A stretch of DNA of 29,670 bases, from positions 1 through 29,670 of IMG/VR virus record IMGVR_UViG_3300018083_000098; one strand, given 5' to 3'. Numbering within the stretch: the first letter of the stretch is position 1; the number at the start of each line of letters is the position of its first letter. The notes under the pieces are model-generated. The model was not told the DNA's origin. It did no database searches and saw only the letters and a list, made by a program, of their open reading frames with translations. Shown one piece after another: positions 4,718-19,868 of the stretch. The stretch comes from a virus. The translations under genes and the position numbers were made by a program.

Positions 4718-5170
4718 TTATGCTATCGCATTTCTTCTAGTTGCTGAAAGAGTTTTTGATATTTTTCTTTTATGTTCTTCTGTTAGCTTTCTTCCTCTAT
4801 TGGAAAGACCTACCTTTCTTCTTTCTTCTATTGGTAGATTCTTTTTAACTTCGCTCATTCTCTGTTTAGCTTTATCTGAGTGTTTATATCCGAAAGAACC
4901 ATCACCGCCACTGGTCGAGTTATATTCTGGCCTTAAGATAGCTATATAGTTTTTTTCTAATCTCTTTAGTAGTTCATAATCAAATATATTTCGATGGATA
5001 ATTTCCCACTTAAAACTATCTCTACCATATTTTTTTATTGCTCTATAAAACTTTGAGTCTTCTCTTTGTAAACTATTTAGATGCTTTGCCTTTCTTGAGG
5101 CAAGACTTTTTAAGGTTAGTCCTATGTAAGATTTATTATTAACAACATTTGTGGCTCGATAAATAATCAT
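4718..5170 (-). CDS. GIY-YIG homing endonuclease with NUMOD3 repeats
   Basis: This 150-residue protein has a GIY-YIG core at residues 2-18 (MIIYRATNVVNNKSYIGLT), the conserved R26, K29 and H30 after SRKAKH, and the downstream E (LLKRLEKNYIAIL). The C-terminal half has two NUMOD3-type DNA-binding repeats (HSDKAKQRMSEVKKN; TEEHKRKISKTLSA). Such free-standing endonucleases cut sequences lacking themselves and spread between phages. It is inserted between the capsid gene and the connector operon and is bracketed by two intrinsic terminators. The ATG directly follows the upstream terminator's U-tract, and the only Shine-Dalgarno-like AGGGG lies in that stem. Confidence 0.9.
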   Translation of the reverse strand: MIIYRATNVVNNKSYIGLTLKSLASRKAKHLNSLQREDSKFYRAIKKYGRDSFKWEIIHRNIFDYELLKRLEKNYIAILRPEYNSTSGGDGSFGYKHSDKAKQRMSEVKKNLPIEERRKVGLSNRGRKLTEEHKRKISKTLSATRRNAIA

Positions 5171-7617: not shown

Positions 7618-8430
7618 TTAGAATTGTTTTTGTTGTTGGGCTTTTTCTGATAAGGAATCGAAGTCGGGCAATCCTTCAATCTCATCTTCTATTACTCTAG
7701 TCAAAGGGAGGTAGGTAGATTTGCAACCGAAGTGCAGAGGGCAAGTGTAAAATCCATACAAAGGGTCATCATAAGCAAATGTCGTACCATTTAACTCATT
7801 ACACAAATCAGTAACCGGGTCAGGATTGTAGAAAACAAATGCTTGAACCAATCCTCTATCGTTTGCCTCCTCGAACACATCATTCCTAGAATCGTTTACC
7901 AGTCCTGCCGATTGAACGAAGGCTCCCTTTCCTTTTTCAATCCCTTCAATAAAATCATCCATTGATGCATTAAGAGCGTCCTGTAGCATTTGTTTGGTTA
8001 GCATATAATTATTCTCAAGTGTTATATAAACACTCCCTTGCATATCTAGGACAATTGATTCGGTGAAGACTTGTGCCTGATGGATAATTCTTTTTTGTTG
8101 GTCGGGATTTAAATTAGCTAAAATTGCCGGGTCAAATTCAATCCTATCTGCAAAGGTAATGGTTACCCTTGTTTCAGATATTACTTCCTGATTTGATGAA
8201 TCAGTTATCTCTGCATGGGCGGCAATCATATCTGATTCAAATTGATTATATAAATCATCTGATGGAGAAATGTTACCTGCTGCTAAATATTTCTCATTCT
8301 CATTTAGGAAGTCCCAATTATTTAACACCTGATTATTTAGGTTCTTTAATATCAAATCCGAGTAGTAGGACATTACTGCTATGAGTAATTCACTTCCGGA
8401 ATCAATTATCTTTTCATATTGTTTAGCCAC
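7618..8430 (-). CDS. Minor head protein (Mu gpF / SPP1 gp7-like)
   Basis: This 270-residue protein has a helical N-terminus (LLIAVMSYYSDLILKNLNN) and a C-terminal head-morphogenesis domain: VNDSRNDVFEEANDRGLV, then DLCNELNGTTFAYDDP, then CPLHFGCKSTYLPL, with the family's D..C..L.G..F....P....P.H..C pattern. Such proteins bind the portal and a few copies may be ejected with DNA. The GTG start overlaps the endonuclease stop (GTGGCTAA) and has a poor ribosome site, so translation may depend on coupling. In the ancestral order it would follow the portal directly. Confidence 0.78.
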   Translation of the reverse strand: MAKQYEKIIDSGSELLIAVMSYYSDLILKNLNNQVLNNWDFLNENEKYLAAGNISPSDDLYNQFESDMIAAHAEITDSSNQEVISETRVTITFADRIEFDPAILANLNPDQQKRIIHQAQVFTESIVLDMQGSVYITLENNYMLTKQMLQDALNASMDDFIEGIEKGKGAFVQSAGLVNDSRNDVFEEANDRGLVQAFVFYNPDPVTDLCNELNGTTFAYDDPLYGFYTCPLHFGCKSTYLPLTRVIEDEIEGLPDFDSLSEKAQQQKQF

Positions 8431-8953
8431 GCTTTAGTTTCTTCATAGATTCTGAAATCTTTAATCTTGTTTGCTCACTAACAACGAAACCTTTTCTGGA
8501 ATTACTTTGTTTTAATTTGGACTCCTCAGTTCTTATTCTTCCAGTTAATCCCTTTGAAATCTTCTTACCTATCTCAGGTGGTCTTTTCTTACCTTTATAT
8601 TTATCACTAAATATCTTTTTGGTTCTCTCGGAAAAGGTATAACCAATCATTCCCTCCCCACCTTCTGATAAATTATAAGGAGGCTTTAATGCTGAAATCA
8701 TTTCTCTTTCAATTGTTTTAATATCTATCTCGTCATCGGATTGATAAAGGACATCCCACTCAAATGCATCTTGTCCGTATTTCTTTATCGCTTTGCTGAT
8801 TAATGATTTGCCAGTATTTCTTCTGGATATATGTTCATTCTTTCTTTTATTTAAGTCCCTAGATGAGATACCTAAGTAAAACTTTCCATTAATTTTATTT
8901 GTTGCTCTATACAGTATCAGATAAATTTCCTTTTGATTTAATACAAGCTGCAA
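8423..8953 (-). CDS. GIY-YIG homing endonuclease inserted between portal and head genes
   Basis: It shows the same family as the gene at 4718-5170: LILYRATNKINGKFYLGIS, then KRKNEHISR, IEREMISAL, and NUMOD3-like repeats (FSERTKKIFSDKYKGKK; EIGKKISKGLTG; SEQTRLKISESMKK). It overlaps the portal 3' end and the start of the next gene. The longest frame begins with a TTG at 8953. Alignment with the sister endonuclease puts the equivalent of its first Met at a CTG codon (8920), which has AAAAGG 8 nt upstream. No ATG precedes the catalytic motif, so a non-standard start is likely. Confidence 0.88.
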   Translation of the reverse strand: MQLVLNQKEIYLILYRATNKINGKFYLGISSRDLNKRKNEHISRRNTGKSLISKAIKKYGQDAFEWDVLYQSDDEIDIKTIEREMISALKPPYNLSEGGEGMIGYTFSERTKKIFSDKYKGKKRPPEIGKKISKGLTGRIRTEESKLKQSNSRKGFVVSEQTRLKISESMKKLKRG

Positions 8954-10492: not shown

Positions 10493-11749
10493 TTAATAGT
10501 TATTTCCAGAATCAATTAGAATAGAACTGCTCCTGTCGATTGACTTATATGTTCCGTATGCCGGAGGAAATAATTTGCAGATGGCATAGCCCAAGGAATC
10601 TGAACTATGAGTCAGAGTTTTATCTTTGCTCTGGTCTAACTTCCCAGACCTAGACCATGTGGTTTTATTCAAGCATCTTATCAAATGTTCACACTTGGGA
10701 TTTATCAGGACTCTCCTATCTTGTAGCATTTTATTTACCGCCATTACCCGGTCAAAGACAAAAGGATTCTTGGAGGGAAGTAGAGTAAAACCTGAGTTGG
10801 CAAGTATCGCATGGTTCGATGGCCCTACTGTTGACCGATTGCCTCCAGTAGAATCAGCAATGATATTTATTTTCTTTCCATACTTACTCATTAATAAACT
10901 GGAGAACTTATATGTATCTGCGTTATCTGGAATAACTATCTCATCAAATACCATTATCTTGTTATCCACTATCTGAAAGATTACCGAGCACATAGGGCTT
11001 ACGTTAAAATCCAGGGCACAATAAATCTGAATCCCTTCCCTCATGGAAACATCAGCAACATTAAATTCTCTGGTAAAGGAAAAGTATGCTGCCTCCGCTG
11101 TGAGGTCTATAAACTCCGCCATACATTCCTGCTGGAATAGTTTATCAGGGTAAGAGTCTTTCAAGGATTGGATATATTCTTCCGGGAGAAGCTCGTTATC
11201 ATAGGTAGTCGCTGTGATAACAAAGCAATCACTAGGTGGGCGGCTGACAAAATACTCATGGACAAAATTAAATCCCTGCGGAGTAGTAGTACATCTAATC
11301 TGCGAAGGACTTTTCCTCACCCTACCAAGTGCCGTTTGAAATGCTTCAGGCTCGTAGAAAGCAAGTTCATCCATCAAAAGGAAATTTACATTTATTGCCC
11401 GAAATGCAGAATCATAATTTAGTGCCGAGAGTCCTGTGATGGTTGATTTATTTCTAAAGGTATAAGTTAGCTTGGGAGATTTTAGTCTTTGGTAATGTTT
11501 CCCCTCCTCCATACCCATGATAGATAAAACGGTTAGGATTTCTTTATCTAGTGCTTGGGTCAACTGCCCATAGTCCTTAGAGGACATGACCGAGGATGTG
11601 TTAGGATGCTCCAAGGCCTTTTTAATAAGCCATAAAGCTCCTATAAAGGTCTTTCCAAAGCCAAGACCTGCTAGGAGTAAACCGATTCTATTAGAGCGAT
11701 TAAGGAAGTCTAATTGCTTGGTGGATAGCTCTATGCACCTTTCAATCAT
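10493..11749 (-). CDS. terL: Terminase large subunit
   Basis: This 418-residue packaging motor has an ATPase domain with Walker A LAGLGFGKT (residues 26-34), Walker B FLLMDE (123-128) and a coupling segment RCTTTPQGF (152-160). The nuclease domain has acidic residues in ALDFN (D247), IIADSTGGNR (D299) and HSSDSLGY near the C-terminus. It cuts and translocates DNA into the prohead through the portal. The ATG overlaps the TerS stop (ATGA). Length is at the short end for TerL but all key motifs are present. Confidence 0.95.
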   Translation of the reverse strand: MIERCIELSTKQLDFLNRSNRIGLLLAGLGFGKTFIGALWLIKKALEHPNTSSVMSSKDYGQLTQALDKEILTVLSIMGMEEGKHYQRLKSPKLTYTFRNKSTITGLSALNYDSAFRAINVNFLLMDELAFYEPEAFQTALGRVRKSPSQIRCTTTPQGFNFVHEYFVSRPPSDCFVITATTYDNELLPEEYIQSLKDSYPDKLFQQECMAEFIDLTAEAAYFSFTREFNVADVSMREGIQIYCALDFNVSPMCSVIFQIVDNKIMVFDEIVIPDNADTYKFSSLLMSKYGKKINIIADSTGGNRSTVGPSNHAILANSGFTLLPSKNPFVFDRVMAVNKMLQDRRVLINPKCEHLIRCLNKTTWSRSGKLDQSKDKTLTHSSDSLGYAICKLFPPAYGTYKSIDRSSSILIDSGNNY

Positions 11750-12120
11750 TCCTTATTTCTTTCTTTGATTATGACATTGATAGCAGAATCAGCAGGGGAA
11801 GAAACTTCAATGCTATCTCTCCAACCATGACGGTTTGCCATGTTATATCTCCAAGCAGAGAAATTTCCTTTTCCTTTAACTGAAATAATAATTCCATTTG
11901 ACTCCCAAAATAATAAGTTAGCAGAGAGACCTTGCTTGTGAGCCTCGGAAAAGTCTGGATACTTTTTCTTCCATTCATACAACGTATCTTGATTGCATTT
12001 AATCCTTCCAGCAAAGGAGGCGAAGGAATATCCCTTGCCCATATGCTCAATCAGCATATCGCAGTATTCAGGATTATAGTCAGGTGGTCTGCCCATTTTA
12101 CTCATGATTAACTTTATCAT
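11746..12120 (-). CDS. terS: Terminase small subunit
   Basis: This protein has up to 124 residues and contains MGRPPDYNPEYCDMLIEHM followed by a helix-turn-helix (SFASFAGRIKCNQDTLYEWKK), typical of small terminase and resolvase-like DNA recognition domains, then a short oligomerisation region (ANRHGWRDS). It recognises the packaging site and regulates TerL. The start is uncertain: ATGs at 12120, 12105 and 12096 are all possible, the last two within or beside the kinase stop. Overlap with TerL is ATGA. Confidence 0.85.
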   Translation of the reverse strand: MIKLIMSKMGRPPDYNPEYCDMLIEHMGKGYSFASFAGRIKCNQDTLYEWKKKYPDFSEAHKQGLSANLLFWESNGIIISVKGKGNFSAWRYNMANRHGWRDSIEVSSPADSAINVIIKERNKE

Positions 12121-12625
12121 AGCTACAATCTTTTAGCTTTAGGAAGTTTTCCTCTATATTTGAAACGGAATCACTAAGCAGCACATAATGTGGGAAAGTG
12201 TCAATAATATTTTTAATCTTTGTTGCTCGACCTGTGACAAATGTTTTGTTTTGATTCCTGCTCTCCTGCCTTAGAGATAGAGTTTCATCGGTGATGGATA
12301 GATAAAATAATTTATAGGTAAATCCGAACTCTGAAAGTTTAGAAATCATTGTTGAGGTTATAAGTCTGTCTCCCTCTATATAGATATTTTTAATTTGTTT
12401 CTTGGCAAAAAGTAGAAACTTAAATAAATCCCTCGGTGATGCCATAGATAATCTATCTGTCCCAGAGAACTCCATATCCTCGCTATAGTCTCCTATAACC
12501 CAATAATCGCTCTCCTTATGGAACTTTATCAGACCAAACTTATAAACGGTCTTGGAGGTGATTAGCCGCTTATAAAGAGTCGTTTTACCGCTAGAGGGAA
12601 CTCCTATCAGGAGTATTAAATTCAT
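12098..12625 (-). CDS. 5-hydroxymethyl-dU DNA kinase (P-loop)
   Basis: This 175-residue P-loop kinase has Walker A GVPSSGKTT (8-16). Diagnostic of the phage 5-hmdU DNA kinase family are WVIGDY (42-47), FSGTDRLSM (53-61), IEGDRL (83-88) and the lid segment TGRATK (131-136). The family phosphorylates 5-hydroxymethyluracil in DNA, giving the activated base used by amino-acid:DNA transferases. It overlaps that transferase gene by 35 nt and TerS by 23 nt. Known of the family: experimentally shown in other phages; inferred here: same role. Compact length suggests no fused helical domain. Confidence 0.85.
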   Translation of the reverse strand: MNLILLIGVPSSGKTTLYKRLITSKTVYKFGLIKFHKESDYWVIGDYSEDMEFSGTDRLSMASPRDLFKFLLFAKKQIKNIYIEGDRLITSTMISKLSEFGFTYKLFYLSITDETLSLRQESRNQNKTFVTGRATKIKNIIDTFPHYVLLSDSVSNIEENFLKLKDCSYDKVNHE

Positions 12626-13448
12626 TTAGATATTTCCTTGAAAATGTTTCTCTGCGAAAATCCCACAGAGGTTTCCAGTTTACTCCGGAAATGCCGCTAA
12701 GTTTTAAAAGCTCAATCCTGTTTCTCTCAATGTAATATCCAACATATCTTTTTCCTTCAATCTTTTTCTTGTAGGCACATAGAGTCGTTTCAAGATTCCA
12801 GACATTGGTGGGAACATAATTTCTAACTGCCGAGAGCAGCTGCTTGAATTTTCCCTCAAGCCCAATCGCTTGGGCATCAGATATTGTTTCATTAAACTCA
12901 ATATTGAAAACATCACAAAGACCTTTTCTAACCGTAGAGGCATTTTTAACATCCAGCTTATCTGGATAAATATTTGTATTGGTAAGGACAGAGAGAAGTT
13001 CTAGGTAAATAAAGGATGAAAACCTCCCGAAGTTTTTAATGGACAGGGCAAAATCATTGAACTCCTGATAAGTTTTCAACCTGGAGAATGTGGAATGTTG
13101 GTCTAGGGAAATAAGATTCCGATATGATTGGAATGTTTCAACGAATTTATTTGCAGTTTTTATCCTTAGCCTATCGGTTTGAAATAATAGTTTGGATTTA
13201 TTTTCTTTCCACCACTTCTCCATTCGAGATACCGATGCTGTTTCAAAGTCAGGGAATTCATTATAAATATAATAGACAGTTGGTGCACAGTAACAAGTTC
13301 CAAAAAGAAATGCCAACCAATATCTTTGTTCGATGTTTAGCTCAAACCTGTCACAGATATATTTTAAACAGGGATTTTGTGGGTCAGTATCTTTTGCCTC
13401 CATCATATCAACATGGAAATTAATAAAATCAGATTTCATATATTTCAT
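12591..13448 (-). CDS. Amino-acid:DNA transferase-like protein (alpha-glutamyl/putrescinyl thymine pyrophosphorylase family)
   Basis: This 285-residue, mostly helical protein contains YWLAFLFGTCYCAPTVYYIY, NEFPDF, RMEKWWKENKSKLLFQTDR, FGRFSSFIYLELL, STVRKGLCDVF, LETTLCAYKKKIEGKRYVGYYIER and GVNWKPLWDFR. This pattern (W...FG..Y..PT....NEFPD; FGR......L; ET.LC...K......R..GYY) is what I know of the DNA-glycosylase-fold family that replaces the phosphate on 5-phosphomethyl-dU with an amino compound. Gene overlap with the 5-hmdU kinase supports the pathway. The amine it uses cannot be read. ATG 13448 or 13439 are both possible. Confidence 0.75.
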   Translation of the reverse strand: MKYMKSDFINFHVDMMEAKDTDPQNPCLKYICDRFELNIEQRYWLAFLFGTCYCAPTVYYIYNEFPDFETASVSRMEKWWKENKSKLLFQTDRLRIKTANKFVETFQSYRNLISLDQHSTFSRLKTYQEFNDFALSIKNFGRFSSFIYLELLSVLTNTNIYPDKLDVKNASTVRKGLCDVFNIEFNETISDAQAIGLEGKFKQLLSAVRNYVPTNVWNLETTLCAYKKKIEGKRYVGYYIERNRIELLKLSGISGVNWKPLWDFRRETFSRKYLNEFNTPDRSSL

Positions 13449-14010
13449 TACTCGCTATGAGGAGTCCATCAAGCCCTGACCTTTTCCCTATGTCAGAGGT
13501 GGAGTAAAATATATTGGAGTCATTTTCCTTGTGGAGATATAGGGGCCTAAAGTTATTTCTAAATGCAAATAGCTTTCCGTCCTTTAACCATACAGCAGCA
13601 ATAGTCTTACCTTTTGAAAAATCTTTGATGTCATCAATCTTACTCACCAATACCTCGGCATCATTTTCCGTGATAAGGGTAAATCCAAACTGACTCTCCA
13701 TATCCTCCTTGCTGTCTCCTGAGATAACTCCATTTAGAGCAAGAGATAGATTTCCTTTGTGGATAGGTTGAGCGTTGTCTAGGTCAACGACTCCTGAAGT
13801 CGAATACCTGTTGTGCCAAATAAATAAACTTGGATAGTCGCTAAAGAGAGAATTTATCGCATCATCAAAGTCCAAAAACTTCTTGGTGGTAAGTATTTTG
13901 TCATAATAGGAATACCCGAAGGAGTGGAGGCCTCTAACGGATGATTCCACCAATACCTTATACATAGTTTCCCGATTCATCTTTCCACTAAACCCAACGA
14001 TACCACACAT
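13429..14010 (-). CDS. Class II glutamine amidotransferase
   Basis: This 193-residue stand-alone Ntn-type glutaminase domain has the Cys2 nucleophile (MCGIVGFSG), RGLHSFGY (matching RGYDSAG of GlmS), WHNRYSTSG (HTRWATHG), NAQPIH, SLALNGVIS (VHNGIIEN) and TENDAEVL (SETDTE). It releases ammonia from glutamine; no synthase or sugar isomerase domain is attached, so the acceptor must be another protein or the DNA adduct itself. It lies between the GNAT and the transferase genes with overlaps on both sides, so it is part of the modification cassette. Confidence 0.85.
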   Translation of the reverse strand: MCGIVGFSGKMNRETMYKVLVESSVRGLHSFGYSYYDKILTTKKFLDFDDAINSLFSDYPSLFIWHNRYSTSGVVDLDNAQPIHKGNLSLALNGVISGDSKEDMESQFGFTLITENDAEVLVSKIDDIKDFSKGKTIAAVWLKDGKLFAFRNNFRPLYLHKENDSNIFYSTSDIGKRSGLDGLLIASNEIYEI

Positions 14011-14362
14011 TGAATATTTTTCCTTTTCTTGACCTTGCTGTTCCTATCTGAGTAAAACCAATCTTCTTATAGAATTTATTTGCCTCGCTATTTTCATCGG
14101 TCTTTAAAGTAATAGGAGAAGGAACTGCCTCTATCAGCTTTCTACCAATACCATTTTTCTTTTCCGCTACCGATATTTCACAGACTTCATACATCCCATC
14201 TTTTTTCCTGTAGTGAACAAATCCATCTTGACCTAGCTTTATCCAATAATGATTTTTCCTGCCAAGAGTTGCCCAGCTCCACATGAAATTACCTAGAATC
14301 TTTTCTCTGGAGAATATTTTCTTAATCCAGAGCTCATCCTCTGGTGTAACCTTTTCAATCAC
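13988..14362 (-). CDS. GNAT-family N-acetyltransferase
   Basis: This 124-residue protein has the GNAT acetyl-CoA motif A (CEISVAEKKNGIGRKLIEA, residues 61-79, with the Q/R-x-x-G-x-G/A-type KNGIGR) and motif B (SEANKFYKKIGF, 92-103). The N-terminal part has aromatic residues (FMWSWATLG; NHYWIKLG) likely forming the acceptor site. Start overlaps the dioxygenase stop and its end overlaps the amidotransferase start. By context it may acylate the amine installed on the modified base, or one of the pathway proteins. An unrelated protein-acetylation role cannot be excluded. Confidence 0.82.
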   Translation of the reverse strand: MIEKVTPEDELWIKKIFSREKILGNFMWSWATLGRKNHYWIKLGQDGFVHYRKKDGMYEVCEISVAEKKNGIGRKLIEAVPSPITLKTDENSEANKFYKKIGFTQIGTARSRKGKIFNVWYRWV

Positions 14363-15212
14363 GCTTTACTCTCGGAAGGTTCTTCAAGGTTTTCTTGTCA
14401 TAGTCCAATGCAATTTTAGTTTTGTTCTTATTGAACCTGTCCATTTCCTCTTTATAAGGTAAGCATTTTAGCATATTTCTAAGGGAATAAAAAACAATGG
14501 TATATCTGTAATAATGTTTTGATGTCGGAGTGAATTTTGTTACTCCATGAAGGTAAGTCTGGTTATCAAACATTACCAAGTCTCCATCTTCTAGTCCTTG
14601 AACCATTCCTAGTTCCGGAATATGAAGATTTCCTCCTTCGATATTTCTCTTATAGACAAGCATCGATGACCATACTCCGGGAAAATTACCAGCATCGGTA
14701 TGGTATCTCATTCTGGCATTTCTATTTACGATTCCGGAAGTGAATATTGAATCCGGCATAAGAAAATCACTTGGCAAATCCTTTTGAATCTCCAATTGCT
14801 TTTGATAAACAGCAAGGTCTATCTCTTTATATTTCTCTGAAACCTTGGTTGATAGCGGATAAAGGACTTCCTTTACTACAGGACGCTCCATCGTACACTT
14901 GGAGAGTCTGCAATAGTCTGCTCTCATGGGTACTCTGGGCAGCCAACCAAATGTTGCACTACCTGTTACTGGTATTCCTCCTGCTCGATGACCTCGGTTA
15001 TAAATCAAATCACCTCGAATCATCCGCTCGACTGTGTCGGTGTCCTTGTCAAAGTTTTTAATCATGTATCCAACAACTTTTCCATTGACTAGGAAACGGG
15101 CATCTTCATTTACGACTATTGCCTTGCTGGCATCTATCGTAGTTTTTCCCCTCAAATCCTTTTTAATTTTCTTGCTGTCAATATCCTTTACTGTAAAACT
15201 ATAATCCTTCAT
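14355..15212 (-). CDS. TET/JBP-type 2-oxoglutarate Fe(II) dioxygenase
   Basis: ATG 15212 (285 residues) is preferred over an upstream TTG at 15245 because GGTGGG lies just before it. The double-stranded beta-helix core has H171 and D173 (MRYHTDAGN), H222 (QTYLHGVT) and R236 (YYRYTIVFYS), the Fe- and 2-oxoglutarate-binding residues, with GGNLHIPEL and EDGDLVMFD between them, as in TET/JBP proteins. The family oxidises the methyl group of 5-methylcytosine or thymine in DNA. The neighbouring 5-hmdU kinase makes thymine the likely substrate; no cytosine-5 methylase is visible in this window. It overlaps the ParB-like gene by 14 nt. Confidence 0.85.
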   Translation of the reverse strand: MKDYSFTVKDIDSKKIKKDLRGKTTIDASKAIVVNEDARFLVNGKVVGYMIKNFDKDTDTVERMIRGDLIYNRGHRAGGIPVTGSATFGWLPRVPMRADYCRLSKCTMERPVVKEVLYPLSTKVSEKYKEIDLAVYQKQLEIQKDLPSDFLMPDSIFTSGIVNRNARMRYHTDAGNFPGVWSSMLVYKRNIEGGNLHIPELGMVQGLEDGDLVMFDNQTYLHGVTKFTPTSKHYYRYTIVFYSLRNMLKCLPYKEEMDRFNKNKTKIALDYDKKTLKNLPRVKRD

Positions 15213-15867
15213 ATCTTCCCACCAAAAAGACAAACAGTTTTGCAATCGTATCTATTTTTTCTTTCTCCATTATCTTCACACATCTCTCCATCGTTAGTCT
15301 AAGTTCCTCTCCTTCGAGGTTGATAAAGATTCTCCTGCTGTCATTGTTTTCATATTCCTCCCGGACATCTGGAGAGTGAGCAGGAAGTGATTCACGCTTT
15401 GTTTCACCGATGGAATCAATAATCGCTGGGTCAAAATATATTCCTAAGTCCTTTTGCAAATCCGGCATCAGCAAATCTTCATATAGACTCATATCTATAT
15501 CTTTTATTTCATCCACCAGGGCATAAAGCATATCGGTGTCAAATACTCCTCCCACCTGATGATTGTTGGCAGTTATATTTGCAGCCTTTTCCGTTTCTTC
15601 ATCCCAGTCAACAATTCTGACAGTAAACTCAAGCGGAGTTTCTCCATCATATAATTGTCCGTTTTTAATATTTAGATTTTTGTGGGTTTTCTTTAGAACA
15701 GAAATCCTTTGATGTCCTGTGACCAGATAGCCAGTTCTTTTGTTCCAAGTAATCCCAGAAATGTCACCAAACTTATCCAGAGACTTCTCCAAACCCTCCA
15801 AAGACTTTTCATTTATAATTCTTGGGTTGTAAGGTGCTGCCTTAATATCCTCTAATTTTATTTCCAA
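15199..15867 (-). CDS. ParB/Srx-like N-terminal domain protein at the head of the modification operon
   Basis: This 222-residue protein has a ParB-type domain (residues 1-110): LEDIKAAPYNPRIINEKSLE, then FGDISGITWN, GYLVTGHQRISVLKK (the GHQR motif) and TANNHQVGG. The remaining half has a helical segment (MLYALVDEIKDIDMSLYEDLL) and a C-terminal about 50-residue region. TTG start at 15867 is supported by GGAGGG with a 5-nt spacer. ParB-like domains recur in phage DNA-modification loci and are thought to bind or process DNA there. Being first in the leftward operon it is well placed to target the enzymes to DNA; this is inference. Confidence 0.8.
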   Translation of the reverse strand: MEIKLEDIKAAPYNPRIINEKSLEGLEKSLDKFGDISGITWNKRTGYLVTGHQRISVLKKTHKNLNIKNGQLYDGETPLEFTVRIVDWDEETEKAANITANNHQVGGVFDTDMLYALVDEIKDIDMSLYEDLLMPDLQKDLGIYFDPAIIDSIGETKRESLPAHSPDVREEYENNDSRRIFINLEGEELRLTMERCVKIMEKEKIDTIAKLFVFLVGRYEGL

Positions 15868-19520: not shown

Positions 19521-19868
19521 ATGCTGTATTTCGTACAATTTAAAACTAGAAACAATGACACGTATATTAAAGTAGGAATAACTGGACAGATAAAAGAAAG
19601 ATTCTATGCACTTCAAAGAGGGTTACCTTTCAAACTAGAATTGCTGCATCTTTTCGATGTTCCTAAATATCAAGAGATTGAGAGGAAAATAAAAAGATTT
19701 ATAAAATCAGATTTAATAGGAGAGTGGTTCCTTTTATCAGACGATAATGCTAATTCGTTCGAAAAAATATTTGAACTTCTAAGTGGGTACAGAGTCGATG
19801 ATGCTTTGGAAATAATAGGACATGATAATGAATCAATTTCTTCATTAATAGAGGAGGAGTTGCAATGA
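19521..19868 (+). CDS. T5orf172/MUG113-type GIY-YIG nuclease-fold protein
   Basis: This 115-residue protein starts MLYFVQFKTRNNDTYIKVGI, matching the YF(V/I)...YIKVGIT pattern of the T5orf172/MUG113 branch of the GIY-YIG fold, followed by RFYALQRGLPFKLELL, the E-x-I pair (YQEIERKIKRFI) and EWFLLS. The acidic C-terminal about 35 residues are extra. Role in phages unknown, perhaps DNA recombination or defence. AAGGAG lies 8 nt before the ATG; the stop overlaps the next ATG (ATGA). Confidence 0.75.
   Translation: MLYFVQFKTRNNDTYIKVGITGQIKERFYALQRGLPFKLELLHLFDVPKYQEIERKIKRFIKSDLIGEWFLLSDDNANSFEKIFELLSGYRVDDALEIIGHDNESISSLIEEELQ

Follow-up and report, generated by a model that had tools for sequence, protein, structure and literature searches.

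A stand-alone glutaminase that recurs beside an amino acid:DNA transferase in uncultivated phages, and its predicted part in making a hypermodified thymine

Why would a virus place a glutaminase domain among genes for the modification of its DNA? The question is raised by the window analysed here, a complete IMG/VR virus record of 29,670 bases, whose minus strand carries six overlapping genes in the order ParB-like protein (15199..15867, the operon head), TET/JBP 2OG-Fe(II) dioxygenase (14355..15245), GNAT acyltransferase (13988..14362, 124 aa, GTG start), class II glutaminase (GAT-II, 13429..14010, 193 aa), amino acid:DNA transferase (AADT or ADDT, 12591..13448, 285 aa) and P-loop kinase (12098..12625), followed by the small and large terminase subunits. 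A sequence-only reading had put the glutaminase and the GNAT between the dioxygenase and the transferase, overlapping both. Its coordinates for the two genes were exact, both ORFs lie on the minus strand with family assignments above the Pfam cut-offs, and the overlaps amount to 8 nt (GNAT/dioxygenase), 23 nt (glutaminase/GNAT) and 20 nt (AADT/glutaminase, counting the AADT from its first ATG). The arrangement was seen again in more than 100 other viral contigs, and such recurrence puts it far beyond chance. We propose, with moderate confidence, that the cluster makes a hypermodified thymine: glutaminase and AADT would together give 5-aminomethyl-dU, which the GNAT would then N-acylate. The base, the complex and the ammonia transfer are all predictions from sequence, structural models and analogy.

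The window glutaminase matches PF13522 (29.2 bits, cut-off 27) and is a glutaminase domain alone. Against the full-length equivalog models of PurF (TIGR01134) and GlmS (TIGR01135), which include a synthase domain, it scores far below cut-off (35 bits against 350 and 25 against 418), the matches covering the glutaminase part only. A scan for close relatives with the single sequence gave no matches, and an alignment-based query was required. C2, R68, N93, G94 and D117 are invariant in an alignment of 35 diverged relatives; from the alignment with PurF and GlmS, we take the first to be the nucleophile and the other four to be glutamine-site residues. They are retained even in two glutaminases (L003 and L064) where the loop from N93-G94 to D117 is shortened. 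The AF2 model (pLDDT 95) has its best solved-structure matches in PurF (Z 21.3), GlmS (Z 19.7) and EgtC (Z 18.1). The first of these is the glutamine PRPP amidotransferase, which displaces pyrophosphate using glutamine-derived ammonia; it shares with the window protein the glutaminase fold and the glutamine-site residues, and differs in carrying its transferase, unrelated to AADT, in the same chain. The third is a class II fold that stands alone and, with no synthase to serve, hydrolyses a gamma-glutamyl amide. EgtC brings to mind a different scheme: AADT would attach glutamine by the amide nitrogen of its side chain, and the gamma-glutamyl amide so formed on DNA would be hydrolysed by the glutaminase-fold protein to leave 5-aminomethyl-dU. 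We hold this to be quite unlikely, because amide nitrogens are weak nucleophiles, the fold matches to PurF and GlmS are better than that to EgtC, and we found no evidence of a site for a DNA-sized substrate.

Gene context points to AADT as the partner of the glutaminase. Viral contigs were scanned by AADT and, independently, by glutaminase, with search patterns that made the selection of loci independent of the partner gene, and the loci were then read with profile HMMs. A glutaminase lies upstream of AADT in all 125 testable loci, i.e., those with sequence present upstream of AADT, and in all 33 AADT clusters defined at 70% identity. It is directly upstream in 67 of these loci, across a GNAT in 57 and across a GIY-YIG-like gene in one. 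Starting from the glutaminase, the scan met AADT at every locus but three, all at contig ends, and a later amidoligase-based scan found two contigs (L202 and L205) holding both genes in one cluster, three genes apart. No fused glutaminase-AADT ORF was seen. Since the kinase adjoins AADT in 85 loci and the TET/JBP gene in 21, the glutaminase is the most constant partner of AADT, and the other genes change places around a glutaminase-AADT core that stays the same. Within six genes of AADT, we found the ParB-like gene in 108 of the 125 loci, the kinase family in 90 and a GNAT in 66. The description of the glutaminase as lacking any synthase partner is thus true of the domain itself but misleading for the locus, given so constant a companion. 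Linkage does not of itself give the ammonia acceptor, and the partnership is one we read from gene context.

In the loci examined, the association is confined to one group of AADTs. Among 39 other AADT-type loci, many of them near-copies from Ackermannviridae, none had a glutaminase in the sequence read around AADT, which mostly reached 7-8 kb in either direction. Four of these controls carry TET/JBP, AADT and kinase genes like the window: Mycobacterium phage Fortunato, Caulobacter phage Cr30 and two environmental contigs (L198 and L199). The same three genes lie near each other in Rhodococcus phage Tonitrus (PMC11955845), which, like Fortunato, also has a ParB-like gene. Fortunato and Cr30 differ from the window in that no glutaminase or GNAT was found within about 8 kb. 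In the tree, from which three long-branch rows were removed, the glutaminase-linked AADTs form one side of a single branch with 100/100 support. A first tree had placed the AADT of Lysinibacillus phage LysYB1 inside this clade on a branch of 5.6, which we took as a long-branch effect and left out. That protein (L111, 6893-8818; 641 aa) has a long C-terminal extension and sits on a very long branch of the tree. Between AADT and glutaminase, pairwise distances are correlated (r 0.90, partial 0.67), the tightest association among the pairs of four genes compared, as would follow from either closer linkage or interaction.

These controls bear on another use of the enzyme, in which the glutaminase would supply glutamate or another amino donor, AADT would add that amino acid as in the alpha-glutamylthymine of phage SP10, and the GNAT would acylate a different site. 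The window AADT does match the alpha-glutamyl/putrescinyl thymine pyrophosphorylase family, weakly and below cut-off. Yet the AADT phages among the 39 controls do without a glutaminase, and cells hold ample glutamate, so that a dedicated glutaminase is not needed to supply it. We judge this explanation very unlikely.

All members of the glutaminase-linked clade come from uncultivated viruses. The 50,697 isolate phage records searched contained only distant AADTs, of about 30% identity or less, BLASTN of the window cluster against isolate phages gave no match, and no AADT relatives were found in bacterial and archaeal genomes. The window AADT scores 61.2 bits against PF18724 (cut-off 26.2), deviating from its relatives at the AESCRNG motif. 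It is homologous to the ViI-type AADTs of Ackermannviridae (PF18724; profile-profile probability 99.8, E 1.2e-27), from which it differs in identity (26%), in length (about 290 aa against mostly 379-416) and in that these have no glutaminase in reach. Its AF2 model (pLDDT 94) matches the fold of gp46 from Pseudomonas phage PaMx11 (8z2m; Z 19.8, rmsd 3.1, 248 of 285 residues), and the next matches are DNA glycosylases at Z 9.6 and below. This link comes from the fold search alone: a search of solved-structure sequences with AADT profiles gave no match, the two proteins are only about 13% identical, and their profiles match weakly (probability 7), so that glycine-site residues could not be mapped that way. 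The name of gp46, 5-phosphomethyl-dU (5-PmdU) glycinyltransferase, implies that an amine is placed on phosphorylated 5-hmdU. We predict for the window AADT the transfer of an amino acid or ammonia to phosphorylated 5-hmdU, with displacement of the phosphate; ammonia as the nucleophile is our proposal, drawn from sequence and models. PurF carries out the equivalent displacement on PRPP and AADT has the fold of a 5-PmdU glycinyltransferase, which is why we propose that ammonia could displace phosphate here.

The pathway would then run as follows. The TET/JBP enzyme, which scores 47.1 bits against PF12851 (cut-off 34.9) and shows the iron-binding HTD...H...R residues in its sequence, would by family oxidise DNA thymine to 5-hydroxymethyl-dU. 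The P-loop kinase would phosphorylate the hydroxymethyl group, as weak kinase matches and the known pathway suggest; its P-loop is present, and it reaches 22.4 bits against Ploopntkinase3 (cut-off 27), a score below cut-off like that for AAA_33. It matches PaMx11 gp49 weakly, and the family is also found in Cr30 near TET/JBP and AADT. In the step that we newly propose, AADT and the stand-alone glutaminase would form a two-subunit amidotransferase: the glutaminase would hydrolyse glutamine, the ammonia would pass to the AADT active site, and AADT would swap phosphate for ammonia to give 5-aminomethyl-dU directly. Where a GNAT is present, it may finally acylate the amine with acyl-CoA as donor, the acyl group being most likely acetyl.

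The closest known parallel is the gp46-gp49 cluster of PaMx11, which encodes the glycinyltransferase, an FAD oxidase, an acetyltransferase and a kinase, the oxidase and acetyltransferase genes coming right after gp46. It shares with the window the AADT fold and probably a P-loop kinase; its acetyltransferase is one that the window GNAT may resemble, and the end product of both is plausibly 5-aminomethyl-dU, free or acetylated. In PaMx11, glycine is reportedly added and then oxidised, leaving 5-aminomethyl-dU (Wen et al. 2024; Lee et al. 2021). The two clusters differ in how they might obtain the amine: PaMx11 has the FAD oxidase and no glutaminase match in the stretch read, whereas the window has the glutaminase and no FAD oxidase that we could find. 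The oxidase family (PF01266) gave no match in the window or in any of 18 related records, while it was detected in PaMx11 as a positive control; PF01593, also tried as a probe, was not a useful family (PaMx11 was not among the sequences scanned). A thymidylate-synthase-like gene, gp51, also stands beside the PaMx11 cluster in place of TET/JBP. The glutaminase would thus stand in for the glycine and FAD-oxidase route and reach the same base in one step. The sequence-only reading found no characterised phage base to match its predicted product, but 5-aminomethyluracil is a reported natural phage base (PMC11550810), and PaMx11 pairs a transferase with an acetyltransferase.

That same reading had offered two destinations for the ammonia, the activated base or a carboxylate of the adduct. 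The first gains support from the linkage to AADT, which in most loci comes without an ATP-dependent amide ligase, and from PurF as the nearest fold. The second would have AADT attach an amino acid as in ViI or PaMx11, with the ammonia amidating a carboxylate of the adduct or of a free precursor. Amide ligases are commonly served by glutaminases, an Amidoligase_2 protein is encoded in the same cluster in six other contigs of the clade, and a ligase resembling asparagine synthetase, which works on a phage base, has been predicted to draw its ammonia from glutamine (PMC12783734). Carboxylate amidation requires ATP activation, and in the window ORFs scanned we found no amidoligase, ATP-grasp, adenylating, PLP or radical SAM family, which makes amidation the less likely outcome in the window. 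Moreover, an amidoligase of this type is near AADT in just three of the 125 loci, and the constant partner is AADT itself. We regard amidation as an unlikely explanation. In the six amidoligase-bearing contigs, a carboxylate may be amidated, or the amidoligase may acylate the amine. Amidation fits better in L202 and L205, where an amidated or aminoacylated base is possible. In these two contigs the glutaminase adjoins the amidoligase, and ORFs of about 140 and 260 aa precede AADT. In amidoligase-bearing L002 (71-571) and L004 (4826-5326), the gene immediately upstream of the glutaminase encodes a predicted phage metallopeptidase (PF18894).

Acylation of an amine, the other step suggested from sequence, agrees with the GNAT data. 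The window protein matches PF13673 (24.8 bits, cut-off 23.6), and its profile gives PaMx11 gp48 44.2 bits, where no GNAT in the PDB scores above 34.0; GNATs being very diverse, this similarity could be general GNAT likeness. We see the GNAT as an optional tailoring step outside the glutaminase-AADT core, predicted to N-acylate the aminomethyl base, with acyl donor and acceptor both inferred. Tailoring would vary among loci around the constant core: some lack a GNAT, and others encode an amidoligase, a radical SAM enzyme or a GNAT-like protein of another kind. A 212-aa GNAT-like protein replaces the usual GNAT upstream of the glutaminase in L052 (2773-3411), and an ORF of the same length and position occurs in L055, L066, L072, L073 and L075. 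Radical SAM-like proteins lie near the glutaminase-AADT pair, with no TET/JBP in view, in L004 (3119-4546), L128 (10293-11552), L147 (6235-7524) and L149 (9752-11368); the call is over the Pfam cut-off for L149, weak for L128 and made by eye for L004 and L147. Further tailoring by these proteins is possible.

Glutaminases also occur in phage modules with an amidoligase and an ATP-grasp enzyme (discussed in PMC10580990), present in BA6 and RIO-1, and the glutaminase and GNAT of the window might belong to such a module, with a putative role in making peptides or modifying the cell envelope, and might just lie near DNA-modification genes. The module glutaminases of BA6 and RIO-1 are parts of 420-450 aa proteins, neither the amidoligase nor the ATP-grasp gene was found in the window, and the linkage to AADT extends to every testable locus. 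We find this origin highly improbable.

Our results suggest, from gene content, that throughout this phage branch the group hung on the base may come from ammonia and not from an amino acid, often with an acyl cap added afterwards. Evenly balanced, in our judgement, is the stronger claim that the AADT clade gave up an amino acid for ammonia as its nucleophile and now works obligately as a DNA amidotransferase of two subunits, one of them a glutaminase dedicated to it, making 5-aminomethyl-dU in one step, with the free amine capped by GNAT, amidoligase or other enzymes. If true, this would be a glutamine-dependent amidotransferase acting on DNA, and a second, shorter route to the base that PaMx11 reportedly derives from glycine by means of an FAD oxidase. 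It would account for a gene that turns up in more than 100 contigs of uncultivated phages and that we saw next to AADT in none of the isolate phages examined. The glutaminase-AADT pair is a concrete one to express, and DNA that bears an aminomethyl base offers a chemical handle by which to label it. Such clusters were reportedly surveyed by Iyer et al. 2013 and Lee et al. 2021, who may already mention the glutaminase gene.

Several neighbouring genes deserve comment. The best PHROG of the window kinase and the Cr30 record of its relative (L113, 13020-13658) both name the protein 'terminase small subunit', which is probably a mis-annotation carried along; the true small terminase gene is likely the next one, at 11746-12120. 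The ParB-like protein matches both phrog_620 (ParB-like, 2.6e-24) and phrog_498 (DNA methyltransferase, 4.6e-22). The GIY-YIG-like ORF between glutaminase and AADT (L067, 326-889), recognised by eye, is the sole interruption by a gene other than GNAT among the 125 loci. The window itself has three GIY-YIG/T5orf172-type endonuclease genes (4718-5170, 8423-8953 and 19521-19868), two of them within the head-gene module.
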